IMG/VR virus record: IMGVR_UViG_3300032053_000102 | Coordinates: 1-53,979 of that record | Source: a virus | Length of the DNA stretch: 53,979 bases | Strand: one strand, 5' to 3' | Shown here: piece by piece, positions 25,363 to 53,979 of the stretch | Numbering within the stretch: the stretch's first letter is position 1 | Layout of the letters: the number at the start of each line of letters is the position of its first letter | The notes under the pieces: model-generated | Seen by the model: the letters and a program-made list of their open reading frames with translations, nothing else | What the model was told of the DNA's origin: nothing | The model's database searches: none | Translations under genes and position numbers: made by a program

Positions 25363-25737
25363 CTGTCAGTTCTCCTTTTGATGTGACATCAATCGTGTCT
25401 CAAATCAAATCATTTTTGGGAAATAATAAATAGCTCAATTCCCGTCTATTATGTTGCCATTGTCCATTATTTTGTAATTACGGGTTTCCTGGTTTCACTG
25501 CTCTCCCTATTCCCTCTATATATACACTACTACTACTACTACTACTACATTAGGAGATATTACACCAAACAGTAAGTAGAGATTCCAGTTCTCAAATCAA
25601 ATCAATTTCAGAGATCAATGGGTGCAAAATAATCGGGAATGACAACATACTATAGCCTACAGGGAACCTCTTATTGCATCTAAAATTGATTTGATTCGAG
25701 GTTCTGATTTCACATCACCGTTACAGGAGTCATCCGA
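25363..25737. promoter_or_regulatory. Divergent intergenic control region with repeated CAAATCAAATCA motifs
   Basis: 375 bp without genes between the divergent primase and ParB-like genes. It contains CTCAAATCAAATCA at 25399-25412, CTCAAATCAAATCAATTT at 25591-25608 and its near-perfect inverse AAATTGATTTGATTCGAG at 25683-25700 (17 of 18 matching). Both operon promoters must lie here; TACTAT near 25648 is a weak -10 candidate. The motif arrangement next to a ParB-like gene suggests operator or parS-like sites; that is inference. Confidence 0.55.
25526..25548. repeat. (ACT)7 microsatellite
   Basis: Seven perfect ACT units plus AC, directly after an alternating TATATATA tract, within the divergent intergenic region. 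A length-variable spacer between promoter elements is possible but unproven. Confidence 0.9.
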
Positions 25738-26721
25738 ATGACCGAGATTGTGCCTGAAGATCGTGTTCCTTTTGTTGTTGGTGTCATCAATATCGCTTTG
25801 ATTCGTGAATCAGAAGTTGCATTACGAGCTGTTAATCGTACATCTGAAAAATATTTGATGTTAGTGGAATCAATCCGCCGTCAAGGTGTTTTGAATCCTG
25901 TCGTTGTTCGCGAGGTTAAAGACCCCAGTAGTGGCAAGATTGTCTACGGATTGGTTGATGGTTTGCATAGATTCACGGCTGCCAAGGATGCTGGCTTGCT
26001 TGAGATTCCCGCCCGTGTTACAACTCTTGATGATCGTGAATTACTTGAAGCTCAAATCATTGCGAACATCCATAAGATTGAAACGAAACCAGTCGAGTAC
26101 ACCAAGCAGATGATGCGTATTCTTGCCGGTAATCCTCTTATGACCAAGCGTGAGTTAGCTGGTCGCTTGGCTCAAACTGAACCTTGGATTAGTCAGCGGT
26201 TGAATCTGTTGAAACTTGATCCGAAAATCCAAGAGTTGGTTGATGCAGAGAAGGTTGTTCTCTCTAATGCGTATGCTTTGGCGAAGTTGCCACTTGAGGA
26301 ACAAATTGATTTTGTTGATCGTGCCATGACGGACACCCCGCAGGTGTTTGTTCCTTCCATCTATAATCGTGTCAAGGAGATTAAGGACGCGAAGTCGAAG
26401 GGTAAGGACGCTTCTCCGGCTGAGTTCACGCCGACGATTCATTTGCAGAAGTTAAGTGATGTCAAGAAGATGTATGAGACTCCTGGTGAGATGCCAGGAA
26501 TGATTTGCAAGGCGCAAAATGCCAGCACAAATATTGAAGGTTTCATGGCCGCCATCACTTGGTGCTTGCATCTGGATGATCTGAGCATCAGGAGTGCAAA
26601 GGTTGATTATGAGGCACGCAAGACAAAGCGTGAGGAGGAAGTTGCTCGTCGAAAGGCTGAACGTGAGGAGAAAAAGCGTAACGAAGCGGCTGCTAAGGCT
26701 GCTGACATTTCTCAACTCTAA
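25738..26721 (+). CDS. ParB-like DNA-binding protein
   Basis: 327 residues behind CAGGAGTCATCCGA. A ParB/Srx-type N-terminal domain (IRRQGVLNPVVVREV; GLVDGLHRFTAAK about 71-83) is followed by a helix-turn-helix (MTKRELAGRLAQTEPWISQR, about 134-153) and a long charged C-terminal helix (about 280-320). This is the plasmid/phage ParB layout, acting in partition or as a transcription regulator. No ParA ATPase is seen in the window. It faces repeated motifs in its own upstream region, suggesting autoregulation. Its DNA is noticeably more G+C-rich than its neighbours. Confidence 0.8.
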   Translation: MTEIVPEDRVPFVVGVINIALIRESEVALRAVNRTSEKYLMLVESIRRQGVLNPVVVREVKDPSSGKIVYGLVDGLHRFTAAKDAGLLEIPARVTTLDDRELLEAQIIANIHKIETKPVEYTKQMMRILAGNPLMTKRELAGRLAQTEPWISQRLNLLKLDPKIQELVDAEKVVLSNAYALAKLPLEEQIDFVDRAMTDTPQVFVPSIYNRVKEIKDAKSKGKDASPAEFTPTIHLQKLSDVKKMYETPGEMPGMICKAQNASTNIEGFMAAITWCLHLDDLSIRSAKVDYEARKTKREEEVARRKAEREEKKRNEAAAKAADISQL

Positions 26722-35701: not shown

Positions 35702-35850
35702 CACGCAAAGAGAACCAAAAGATATACATCAATGGTGAAGAAATAGTTATAACTATTTGCAGGATAATATCAGATAAAGTTAGGATCGGAATTGATGCAC
35801 CTAAAAACATAACCATTGAACGCGAGGAACTCCGTGCAAGATCAAAATGA
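35689..35850 (+). CDS. csrA: CsrA-like RNA-binding translational regulator
   Basis: 53 residues from the ATG at 35689 (AAAGGATTCACAA upstream); a longer in-frame reading has no ribosome site. MLVLTRKENQKIYING, then VRIGIDAPKNITIEREEL, is the CsrA/RsmA fold almost word for word, including the N-terminal LTR and the IEREEL segment whose Arg contacts RNA. CsrA dimers bind GGA in hairpin loops and usually block ribosome sites. Two GGA triplets lie in its own leader (CTGGAAAGGATT), suggesting autoregulation. It overlaps the next gene by 17 nt. Confidence 0.94.
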   Translation: MLVLTRKENQKIYINGEEIVITICRIISDKVRIGIDAPKNITIEREELRARSK

Positions 35851-37588
35851 ACAAGTTCATTATTTATCGGTAAATAAGATATTTGCCAACCCAATCTTCA
35901 ATTGTTTTAGTGGTGATGTCAAATTTATTACATCGTCTGGGGCAAAAACATTCAAAGAAATGGAAGGGCATCAAGTTTTTGTCTTAAATATTGATGGTAA
36001 TTGGGAATCGGCAATCGTTAAGAGCTATGGCAAGCAACAATTACAAAAAATAACATTCAGACCTAGATATTGTAATGGTACTAAAATCCCATCAAAAGTA
36101 GAATACACTACGTTAGCAACAATGAATCATCGTTGGATTCTTGCAGACCAATCTGAAACAACAGATTTAGAAGTTGGTTGCAATATACGAATTATTAGAA
36201 ATCGAGTTAATGTAGGTCGTGATAGTGATTATTTTGATGGTTTCGCACATGGATTAATTTTTGGTGACGGTTCTGCTGAAACAAAACAAGGTGGAAGATT
36301 TAGAATTAGATTATGTAAGGATGAAAATAATCATTTAGCTAATTTGTTGATTGATTCTTCATTTTTTAATACAATCTATCGGCCTAAGTCTTGTGGTGGT
36401 GATTTCTTGGTTATGCTAGAATCATTGGAGGATGATTTAAAAGCATTACCTGAAAATAAATCATGGATGTATTTGAATGGATTTATTGAAGGTTGGCTCG
36501 AAGCGGATAGTCGTATTACTTATGGTTCGTATGAATTATATTCTATAAATAAAAAAGCAATTGATTGGATTATAGATAATTGTGCAATAGCCGGGTATGC
36601 CGTAACAGGTATCCATCTTAATACCAAACCTTCTAATTTTGGACCAAGAAAACCGCTGCATAGTGTGCTTTTGAATCCAGAATCAATAATTTATCAAGTA
36701 GTAAATATTGAAGTCACAGATCAAATTGAAACCGTGTATTGTGTAGAGACAGAATCATCTGGTACTTTTACTTTGGCTGGTGGATTACTTACTGGAAATT
36801 GTAGGGGAAATATCAGTCCTTTAGATGTAGTTGACCTTGCCAAGAGTATTGAGAAATCGGGATTGTTACAACCTATTATTGTACGTCCACGTCTTGAATC
36901 AACGCCTTCTGGTTTTGATTATGAAGTTGTTGCTGGTCACCGTAGGCATAAAGCTTGTCAAGTAAATAATATGGAAATGGTATCTTGTTTGATAAAATTA
37001 AATATAAATGATTTTGAAGCACGAACGATCAATGCTGTTGAAAATATCAAACGTAAAGCTCTTAACATGTTACAAGAAGCTAATACTGTACGTCATTATT
37101 ATGAAGCTGGTTGGAATAGAAGTGATATTGCAAAGGAACTTGATGTTTCTCCTGGTTGGGTACAAGTTCGTTGTATGATTTTAGAATTACCTCTTGATAT
37201 TCAAGAAGCTATTGCAGCAGGAATCTTTACTCAAACTCAAATCCGCGATTTACATGGTTTGAAGAATAAAGATCATCAGTATCTTGCCGCACGTAAGATT
37301 AAAGAGGCAAGAGAACGTGGCGATCATTTAACTGTAGAATCAAAGTTACGAGTCGCTAAGAATCCTAATGCCAAACGTGCTAGAAAACGTAATGAGTTGT
37401 TCTTAATGCAAGACGAGATTTATAAAGCTATTGGTAATAATCTTGCAACTAGAGCATTGGGATGGGCTGCTGGAGAAGTTTCAGATATGGATTTCTATTG
37501 TTCACTCAAAGAGTATTGTGATGATCACGATATGCCCTATTCCATTCCTGAATTTGATTTTGACAAAGAATTGCAAATTAGCACCTAA
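35834..37588 (+). CDS. ParB-like protein interrupted by an intein
   Basis: 584 residues from GTG 35834, preceded by GCGAGGAAC; a TTG at 35816 is the alternative. Extein part 1 is 23 residues ending KIFANPIFN; the intein then runs from Cys24 for 299 residues; extein part 2 resumes CRGNISPLDVVDLAKSIEKS, i.e. the intein splits ParB box I. Further ParB features are VVAGHRRHKAC and a helix-turn-helix (NRSDIAKELDVSPGWVQVR). The spliced protein would be about 285 residues. It is the second ParB-like protein of the window, coupled to csrA by overlap. Role could be partition, transcription control or nuclease activity. Confidence 0.88.
   Translation: MQDQNEQVHYLSVNKIFANPIFNCFSGDVKFITSSGAKTFKEMEGHQVFVLNIDGNWESAIVKSYGKQQLQKITFRPRYCNGTKIPSKVEYTTLATMNHRWILADQSETTDLEVGCNIRIIRNRVNVGRDSDYFDGFAHGLIFGDGSAETKQGGRFRIRLCKDENNHLANLLIDSSFFNTIYRPKSCGGDFLVMLESLEDDLKALPENKSWMYLNGFIEGWLEADSRITYGSYELYSINKKAIDWIIDNCAIAGYAVTGIHLNTKPSNFGPRKPLHSVLLNPESIIYQVVNIEVTDQIETVYCVETESSGTFTLAGGLLTGNCRGNISPLDVVDLAKSIEKSGLLQPIIVRPRLESTPSGFDYEVVAGHRRHKACQVNNMEMVSCLIKLNINDFEARTINAVENIKRKALNMLQEANTVRHYYEAGWNRSDIAKELDVSPGWVQVRCMILELPLDIQEAIAAGIFTQTQIRDLHGLKNKDHQYLAARKIKEARERGDHLTVESKLRVAKNPNAKRARKRNELFLMQDEIYKAIGNNLATRALGWAAGEVSDMDFYCSLKEYCDDHDMPYSIPEFDFDKELQIST
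35903..36799 (+). other. Intein with LAGLIDADG homing endonuclease
   Basis: In-frame insertion of 299 codons. Block A begins CFSGDVKFITSSGAKTF (Cys1); the block B His is in TMNHRWIL; LAGLIDADG-type motifs are HGLIFGDGSAE and GFIEGWLEADS; the C-terminal block reads VYCVETESSGTFTLAGG followed by LLTGN, with Asn last and Cys as the +1 extein residue. The penultimate residue is Gly where His is usual. All splicing residues needed for a class 1 intein are otherwise present, so it should be active. Confidence 0.92.
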
Positions 37589-51893: not shown

Positions 51894-52805
51894 ATGATCA
51901 AGTATCTTAGTCCAACAAGTCTGCAAGCCTGGCGTAAAGATAAAACTGAGTTTTATCTCAGGTATTTAGCGGAGGATAGAGTACCACGTTTCCCACAAAC
52001 CAAACACATGGCTGTTGGTTCAGCTTTTGATGCTTATGTCAAAAGCGAGTTGGGAAGAATGATTGGAGTTGAGGTGGATTTTGAAGAATTATTTGAGAAA
52101 CAAGTGGAATCGGAGAATAGGGAAATAGCGAGAATTGATGGGAAGATCGTAATGGAAAGGTATAAGGGCCTCGGGTGCCTTGCTGATTTAGTAACAATGA
52201 TTCAAGGATGTGCTCGATTTGAATTTACTGTAATGACAGAAGCAAAAGGGAAGGAGGTAGGGGAAGATGGAGGTCTTACTTTACTTGGCAGACCAGACGC
52301 TTACTTCACTGATCGTTATGGCAATGATATTATACTTGATTGGAAAGTTAATGGCTTTTATAGTAAGAGCCGTTTATCGCCAATGAAGGGGTATATGAAG
52401 TTGAGACCTGGTGGGGAATGTCACCGGGATGCGATAGTAATGGATCATCGGGGAGTGCAATGCAATATAAGTTACGGGTTAGAAGTATGTAACGAGGTTT
52501 GGGCGTTACAACTTGCTACATACTCTTGGCTGACTGGTCAGCAGATTGGTTCCGATTTTATCGCGGCCATTGATCAAATTGTTGGCCCTGACTTGCGAGT
52601 GGCAGAGTATCGTGGAGTAATAGGAGCAGAGTATCAATGGAAGTTGTATGAAGAATATACAGAATTGTGGGAGATTGTGAAATCAGGTTGGATATTTCGT
52701 GAGATGTCGGAGGGTTCATCGAGGGAGAGGCAAGAGATTTTAGACAAACAAGCACAAGGATTACGGGAAGGAGGCGAATGGTTTTCGAGTGTCACACGCG
52801 GTTGA
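51894..52805 (+). CDS. PD-(D/E)XK nuclease (RecB/Cas4-like)
   Basis: 303 residues behind AAGGAGACTGA. KYLSPTSLQAWRKDKTEFYL is the usual opening of the PDDEXK_1 family, GSAFDAYVKSELG follows, GRPDAYFTDR and DIILDWKVNGF (about 132-155) give the catalytic D...DxK, and WALQLATYSWLTG the conserved Gln-Tyr helix. It probably acts as an exonuclease in recombination or DNA processing. No Cas proteins or repeats are near. Confidence 0.87.
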   Translation: MIKYLSPTSLQAWRKDKTEFYLRYLAEDRVPRFPQTKHMAVGSAFDAYVKSELGRMIGVEVDFEELFEKQVESENREIARIDGKIVMERYKGLGCLADLVTMIQGCARFEFTVMTEAKGKEVGEDGGLTLLGRPDAYFTDRYGNDIILDWKVNGFYSKSRLSPMKGYMKLRPGGECHRDAIVMDHRGVQCNISYGLEVCNEVWALQLATYSWLTGQQIGSDFIAAIDQIVGPDLRVAEYRGVIGAEYQWKLYEEYTELWEIVKSGWIFREMSEGSSRERQEILDKQAQGLREGGEWFSSVTRG

Positions 52806-53124: not shown

Positions 53125-53352
53125 ATGATGGCTAAGCCACGCTTTCATGTTTCATCTTTTAACAATACAGTCACAGTGCAAATGAATGAAGATTTTGCCT
53201 GTGAGTTATTTGATTTAATTAGGATGAAGCCAGGTATAAGTCCTACTTTATTTGCTTTGAGTGAGAAAATCGAGAATCAATTTTACTTCATGGGGAAATT
53301 GACAAAGCGGCCTGATAGAATACCCCTGGAGTCGGAGGAATCGGTGGCATAA
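53125..53352 (+). CDS. Small hypothetical protein
   Basis: 75 residues from ATG 53125 or 53128 behind AAGGAGAA. PRFHVSSFNNTVTVQMNEDF then a helical middle and basic-acidic tail. Last gene before a terminator. Confidence 0.58.
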   Translation: MMAKPRFHVSSFNNTVTVQMNEDFACELFDLIRMKPGISPTLFALSEKIENQFYFMGKLTKRPDRIPLESEESVA

Positions 53353-53357
53353 GTGTA

Positions 53358-53397
53358 GACCAGCACACCTTTTTGGTGTGCTGGTCTTTTTCTTTTT
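53358..53397 (+). terminator. Rho-independent terminator at end of early block
   Basis: Perfect 12-bp stem GACCAGCACACC / GGTGTGCTGGTC with a TTTTT loop, followed by TTTTTCTTTTT. It closes the long plus-strand block before the repeat-rich non-coding end. Confidence 0.94.
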
Positions 53398-53704
53398 AGA
53401 TCAAATCTGGTCTAGGCTAGGAAGCGTAATAGGGCGACGGGGAGAGGATGGTCCAGATATAGCTGAGTGCCTAGAATCGGCTCCAGTGACGATGCTATGG
53501 GCCTAGAATCGGGTACAGTGGGCTTTGGGTCTAATGGGCTTTGGGTTACTGGACTTACTAACTAAGACCCTATTCTATACTCTACTATTCTCTCTCTCTC
53601 TCTCTCTCTCTCTAATATAGTATATAAGGAACTTAGGAAGTAGTTATTGACACACCTAAACGGGTGGTCTGTAGTCAAATTGACTATAGACCAGATTTGA
53701 TCTA
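53397..53704. repeat. 18-bp perfect inverted repeat pair
   Basis: TAGATCAAATCTGGTCTA at 53397-53414 is repeated in inverse as TAGACCAGATTTGATCTA at 53687-53704, bounding 272 bp. Between them lie two copies of a GCCTAGAATCGG...CAGTG repeat (53469, 53501), two of TGGGCTTTGGGT (53519, 53535) and a (TC)n tract. No open gene is visible in this stretch. Confidence 0.85.
53589..53613. repeat. (TC)12 tract
   Basis: Uninterrupted TC repeat followed by the AT-rich TAATATAGTATATAAGG. Polypyrimidine runs beside AT-rich DNA are common in melting or origin regions. Confidence 0.9.
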
Positions 53705-53858
53705 ATAAATAATTGGGGTATTGTTGATCAACAATAAGGTGTACAATAAGGTGTAGTCAATTTGACTACAGGTGTATGATAAGGTGTAGTCAATTTGACT
53801 ACAGGTGTATGATAAGGTGTAGTCAATTTGACTACAGTCTTAATACACCTGTAGTCAA
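53670..53858. repeat. Iteron-like array of 19-bp palindromes (33-bp period)
   Basis: TGTAGTCAATTTGACTACA occurs at 53752-53770, 53785-53803 and 53818-53836, exactly 33 bp apart; a variant (TGTAGTCAAATTGACTATA) is at 53670-53688 and a half site at 53850-53858. Between them are the palindrome TTGTTGATCAACAA (53721-53734) and tandem ACAATAAGGTGTA. A TTGACA at 53647-53652 with TGTAGT 17 bp later would put a promoter under the first palindrome. Candidate origin, partition site or repressor operator. Confidence 0.8.
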
Positions 53859-53863
53859 CAGGT

Positions 53864-53979
53864 TTCGTGCTTCGTGCTTTGTGCTTCGTGCTTCGTGCTT
53901 CGTGCTTCGTGCTTCGTGCTTCGTGCTTCGTGCTTCGTGCTTCGTGCTTCGTGCTTCGTGCTTCGTGCTTCGTGCTTCG
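53864..53979. repeat. Heptanucleotide tandem array (TTCGTGC)n
   Basis: Sixteen full units of TTCGTGC plus four bases, with a single variant (TTTGTGC, third unit), running to the last base of the window. The true copy number is unknown because the array is cut by the window edge. Confidence 0.95.

Follow-up and report, generated by a model that had tools for sequence, protein, structure and literature searches.

The non-coding right end of a tailed-phage genome fragment carries a cluster of 19-bp palindromes belonging to a site class that recurs in several structurally unrelated phages, and whose independently varying half-sites point to a dimeric DNA-binding protein. We tentatively favor reading the cluster as origin iterons, a docking array for a lambda-type replication initiator, at somewhat less than an even chance and ahead of a reading as a transcriptional operator. 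The fragment, hereafter the window, is the whole stretch of DNA analyzed, a linear IMG/VR virus record of 53,979 bp. It encodes a major capsid protein, tail genes, a primase-like protein, a DNA polymerase, a helicase, a ribonucleotide reductase, a ligase, and two ParB-like proteins. Its left end falls inside a gene; a 4,750-bp contig (L014), matching with one mismatch in 2,553 bases, adds the next 2.2 kb leftward, into the portal gene.

The last listed gene of the window stops at position 53352, and no open reading frame of at least 50 aa is listed in 53353-53979. Between this gene and a terminal heptamer array lie a terminator-like hairpin, a CT run, an 18-bp palindrome, and the palindrome cluster (Table 1). 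The heptamer array begins 27 bp past the cluster, and the window breaks within it, 143 bp after the last full palindrome copy. A preliminary description of this DNA had placed the cluster in a gene-free end with other palindromes; the listed reading frames agree on the lack of genes, but because the linear fragment breaks inside the heptamer repeat, this end is in part an assembly edge. The gene upstream of this non-coding hub, which gave no Pfam or PHROG matches, is also the conserved upstream neighbor of the hub in two relatives (G001 and G004).

Table 1. Coordinates of the palindromes, repeats, and genes of the window discussed in the text.
Feature	Position	Strand	Remark
Perfect 19-bp palindrome TGTAGTCAATTTGACTACA, copy 1	53752-53770	.	
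Perfect 19-bp palindrome TGTAGTCAATTTGACTACA, copy 2	53785-53803	.	
Perfect 19-bp palindrome TGTAGTCAATTTGACTACA, copy 3	53818-53836	.	
Variant palindrome TGTAGTCAAATTGACTATA, 1 mismatch	53670-53688	.	Core of 27-bp near-palindrome 53666-53692
Isolated half-site TGTAGTCAA	53850-53858	+	Missed by the preliminary description
33-bp tandem unit, 3.1 copies, 97% match	53737-53837	+	Holds the three perfect palindromes
Second, unrelated 18-bp perfect palindrome TATTGTTGATCAACAATA	53719-53736	.	Missed by the preliminary description
Tandem array (TTCGTGC)16.6	53864-53979	+	Contig stops inside array (assembly edge); missed by the preliminary description
Intrinsic-terminator-like hairpin, strong	53357-53387	+	After last listed gene; non-coding hub starts here
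Gene upstream of hub	51894-52805	+	Homologues in 12 viral loci; nuclease-like by eye
ParB-like protein 1 (ParB1; ParB_N + HTH_ParB)	25738-26721	+	Disfavored as binder
ParB-like protein 2 (ParB2; ParB_N + HTH_ParB/KorB), probable intein	35816-37588	+	Disfavored as binder

The three perfect 19-bp palindromes on a 33-bp period and the fourth variant that had been reported are real: with at most three mismatches allowed there are four matches, where 0.01 would be expected and shuffled sequences never give four, and no copy at this threshold lies elsewhere in the window. The architecture is TGTAGTCAA-N-TTGACTACA, in one near-perfect and three perfect copies plus the half-site; start-to-start distances of the perfect copies are 33 and 33 bp, and 53843-53858 is an inverted 16-bp copy of the tandem-unit junction. 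It had been argued that this period, close to three helical turns, would align bound dimers on one DNA face. The arithmetic holds in the window, but copies in other phages are spaced 20, 22, 23, 24, 26, 31, 32, 33, 41, 43, and 44 bp apart, so the near-integral phase is not general.

We scanned 2.9 million viral contigs and found the exact palindrome at nine loci. Five of these loci (G001, G003, G004, G005, and G006) come from the window's own phage family, here family A; “family A” and “family B” are working labels, and gene calls in the relatives are mechanical open reading frames. Membership of these five follows from capsid homology, mostly accompanied by portal, primase, or ParB homology, with roughly 35-50% protein identity. 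The flanks of the site do not align in these five, so the 19 bp themselves have been kept. The site is present in a minority of the family, as 46 other family contigs hold no copy with at most two mismatches. A relaxed-centre pattern (TGTAGTCA-N3-TGACTACA) matched 45 loci, several with arrays including degenerate copies, against a chance estimate of about ten that is rough and indicative only, the size of the collection in bases not being stated; an explicit array pattern matched ten loci where the same rough estimate gives well under one. The class can be written TGTMRTCA-N3-TGAYKACA with an A+T-rich centre. Its dyads occur in 12 family-A members, in the structurally unrelated family B (G061, G073, G087, G091, L269, and L270), and in further phages, and Markov controls contain almost none. 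Several relatives carry one copy only. Among cultured phages and plasmids the palindrome has no match, and the window capsid has only distant relatives among cultured phages. A search for a protein family common to all site-bearing phages found none.

What is conserved in these dyads is the half-site. Across 48 dyads TGTAGTCA accounts for 76 of the 96 halves, the others being TGTCGTCA or TGTCATCA. A+T makes up 91% of the three central positions, a bias that is informative in that most dyads came from centre-free searches, although the first scan fixed part of the centre. In 18 of the 48 the halves are non-complementary, each half being kept, so hairpin pairing is not the conserved feature. We accordingly rejected a hairpin or RNA function for the cluster, which folds strongly; an Rfam search of the cluster returned only chance miRNA-type matches far below gathering scores. 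Independent variation of the half-sites points instead to a dimeric DNA-binding protein, and we suggest that the dyads serve as binding sites for a winged-helix or helix-turn-helix dimer in a non-coding control hub that separates the replication module from the packaging module. The preliminary description had offered iterons, a parS-like site, or a cooperative operator; the recurrent dyad, independent halves, A+T-rich centre, and association with initiator genes fit dimer sites of the iteron or operator type, and the parS-like option is not supported, as detailed below.

Nearly all class sites fall in non-coding DNA. In 11 of 12 family-A members the site is non-coding, follows the end of the replication module and precedes the packaging module, 5-21 kb upstream of the terminase where measured; the exception is G003, whose site occupies the gap between leftward primase/HNH genes and a rightward ParB gene. 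The family-B sites precede the large-terminase gene by about 3-4 kb where measurable.

The preference for origin iterons stems from two phages outside family A, in which the dyads lie within or directly after an initiator gene. One (L227) has three tandem dyads, TATAGTCAATATGACTATA and two near-identical copies of TGTAGTCAATATGACTAC, at spacings of 24 and 23 bp. All three fall within the 3' part of a gene whose product is a lambda-O-like initiator (PF04492, E 4e-17; PHROG 678, 1e-18), where they directly follow the winged-helix domain and encode a linker. In the other (L213) a DnaD/O-like HTH_36 initiator gene ends just 2 bp before an array of up to five copies. This is reminiscent of the lambda origin, whose iterons within gene O are four inverted repeats of roughly 19 bp, each recognized by a protein dimer: the window likewise has several clustered inverted repeats of 18-19 bp, the same in number and size, and the L227 dyads share the placement inside an O-like gene after its winged-helix domain. 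The window differs from lambda in that its array lies in a non-coding hub, an O-like gene was not detected, the spacing is larger, and a marked A+T-rich element is not apparent; DNA around sites in the hub is 60-67% A+T, against a window mean near 62%.

From the sites, their recurrence, position, half-site variation, and initiator association, we infer a role in initiation in which initiator dimers would fill the one to five iterons, the DNA between iterons would be wrapped or bent, adjacent DNA would melt, and the phage primase-helicase would then be loaded. Counting against an origin, the hub shows no strongly A+T-rich element, the site is nearer packaging than replication genes in families A and B, and several relatives have single-copy sites. 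In G001, a near-complete relative, the GC skew changes direction in the primase/ParB gap (60-63 kb) and not at the site (1.36 kb), a profile confounded by gene direction. Neither an O/DnaD-like nor a Rep_3 initiator was found in the searched site-carrying family-A records, including the window, which is cut at the right; a candidate initiator could lie in the missing sequence beyond the contig end. PF01051, the initiator domain of a Rep_3-type iteron plasmid origin, was absent in 23 records.

A cooperative operator is a close rival, though less likely: a phage transcription regulator would occupy the dyads and control packaging or late-operon promoters, or divergent promoters as in G003, where the site separates genes that run apart. 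Consistent with this, in family B and in 10 members of family A the site is non-coding, follows a strong terminator, and precedes the packaging module. The TTGAC half-sites are also similar to -35 boxes, and the 33-bp period of the window sets TTGACT 17 bp before the next TGTAGT. This promoter-like spacing does not hold in relatives, however, a promoter scan found no more than shuffles did, a regulator gene common to site-bearing phages was not found, and the two phages with arrays in or right after an initiator gene fit poorly. Operators and stoperators of mycobacteriophage L5 are 13-bp, asymmetric, genome-wide sites (PMC9283540). Like the cluster of the window, they consist of a short and highly specific phage DNA site present several times, but the window sites are symmetric and their full-length copies are confined to one right-end cluster.

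Recognition of the dyads by the small terminase subunit, as at a cos- or pac-like packaging site, we consider improbable. Two unrelated families do have the site upstream of their terminase, and many contigs end within 1.4 kb of it. The terminase is nevertheless 3-21 kb away, a Cys/His protein encoded before the terminase is found also in relatives that lack the site, and a dyad array occurs inside an O-like gene. Tandem repeats, present at the right end of the window, the start of G064, the end of G094, and both ends of G001, explain the contig ends at least in these four, which are best read as assembly breakage. Diverse tandem repeats lie next to the hub, and repeat-rich DNA seems to be a habitual neighbor of the site.

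A slimmer chance still goes to a host DNA-binding protein whose site is used by phages sharing hosts. Such a protein would account for a site common to structurally unrelated phages, some of which share accessory genes that suggest common hosts, and for the lack of a phage protein family common to all carriers. Against it, scanning 84,980 genomes of bacteria and archaea for the exact palindrome gave only eight matches, about chance level by our own estimate, most of them terminator-like or in coding sequence, and no host regulon was visible. One of these eight (L023:521-539) lies just before a Nudix-type, possibly NrtR-like gene in an Erysipelotrichaceae MAG, followed by genes that look by eye like nicotinamidase and nicotinate phosphoribosyltransferase. 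We set aside the host NAD regulator NrtR as a candidate reader, this single case being near chance level; the papers searched gave no decisive motif.

Least probable, and very unlikely, is a parS-like centromere to which ParB1 or ParB2 would bind. Both proteins carry ParB_N and HTH_ParB domains, clustered palindromes are a usual centromere layout, and the odd-centred palindromes of the window recall KorB sites, which are odd-centred too. Against it, ParA (PF13614) was not found in 12 records, whereas the control was detected in each of 14 genomes. Phages with an identical dyad also differ in the recognition helices of both ParB proteins, a lack of covariation on which we rejected both as binders. 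In addition, where relatives share a ParB type their palindromes are different ones and dispersed, and an unsystematic look at several site carriers outside the family found no ParB gene. ParB2 has an apparent intein at about residues 29-325 (Pfam Intein_splicing only E 0.023), and its homologues in relatives have none. Large genes near the site in G001, G004, and G007 that looked ParB-like were also discarded: their Pfam and PHROG matches were unconvincing, and they are mutually non-homologous.

The dispersed palindromes form a system separate from the cluster of the window. TGATTTNNNAAATCA is scattered genome-wide 60 times in G027, 50 times in G010 (L050-L053), and 13 times in G017 (L186-L188), with at most one copy in each other relative tested and zero matches to a reversed control pattern; these three genomes share the ParB1 helix LS(V/I)S..WL..RLGLVKL. 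Another dispersed dyad, AGTTANTAACT, occurs 58 times in G045 (L182-L185). Dispersed copies occur in coding as well as non-coding sequence and, in the genomes that have most of them, are roughly 1 kb apart. Their sequence follows ParB1 type, a correlation in few genomes, and they are candidates for a many-site ParB/parS-like system that would operate without ParA. The 9-mers TTGATTTGA/TCAAATCAA, which correspond to a half-site of the G010 dispersed palindromes, occur seven times in the window against about 1.2 expected in its whole length, and four of the seven lie at 25400-25696, in the divergent primase/ParB1 gap, a possible ParB1 site.

Returning to origin iterons and the class as a whole, several unrelated phage lineages may have one 19-bp dyad class in common as a control element, which initiators of different families or one widely exchanged phage protein would read, a proposal we hold as doubtful. 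If true, the class would mark origins in uncultured phages that have no recognized initiator. The uncultured tailed-phage group concerned is sizeable, a relative of the window capsid being encoded by at least 519 loci, and encodes a primase-helicase-like protein but no recognized origin-binding protein. A simple DNA pattern would then locate a control region, perhaps the replication origin, in some of these phages, and origin use would become directly testable. The dyad is shared by lineages that differ in their replication genes, and this prompts the question of which protein reads it.

Palindromes also turned up in two other settings. In another phage group (L006:1550, L012:7744, and L013:144) the palindrome has a tRNA-like sequence on one side and an integrase-like gene on the other, accompanied by further GTAGTCAA half-sites, perhaps integrase arm sites; we set these loci aside. 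In G056 (53228-53464; L149:11250-11486) the gene that precedes the hub in the window is immediately followed by five copies of another palindrome, with core ATGATAAATTTATCAT (for example, CCATGATAAATTTATCATGG), so palindrome arrays at the hub position differ in sequence from one relative to another.
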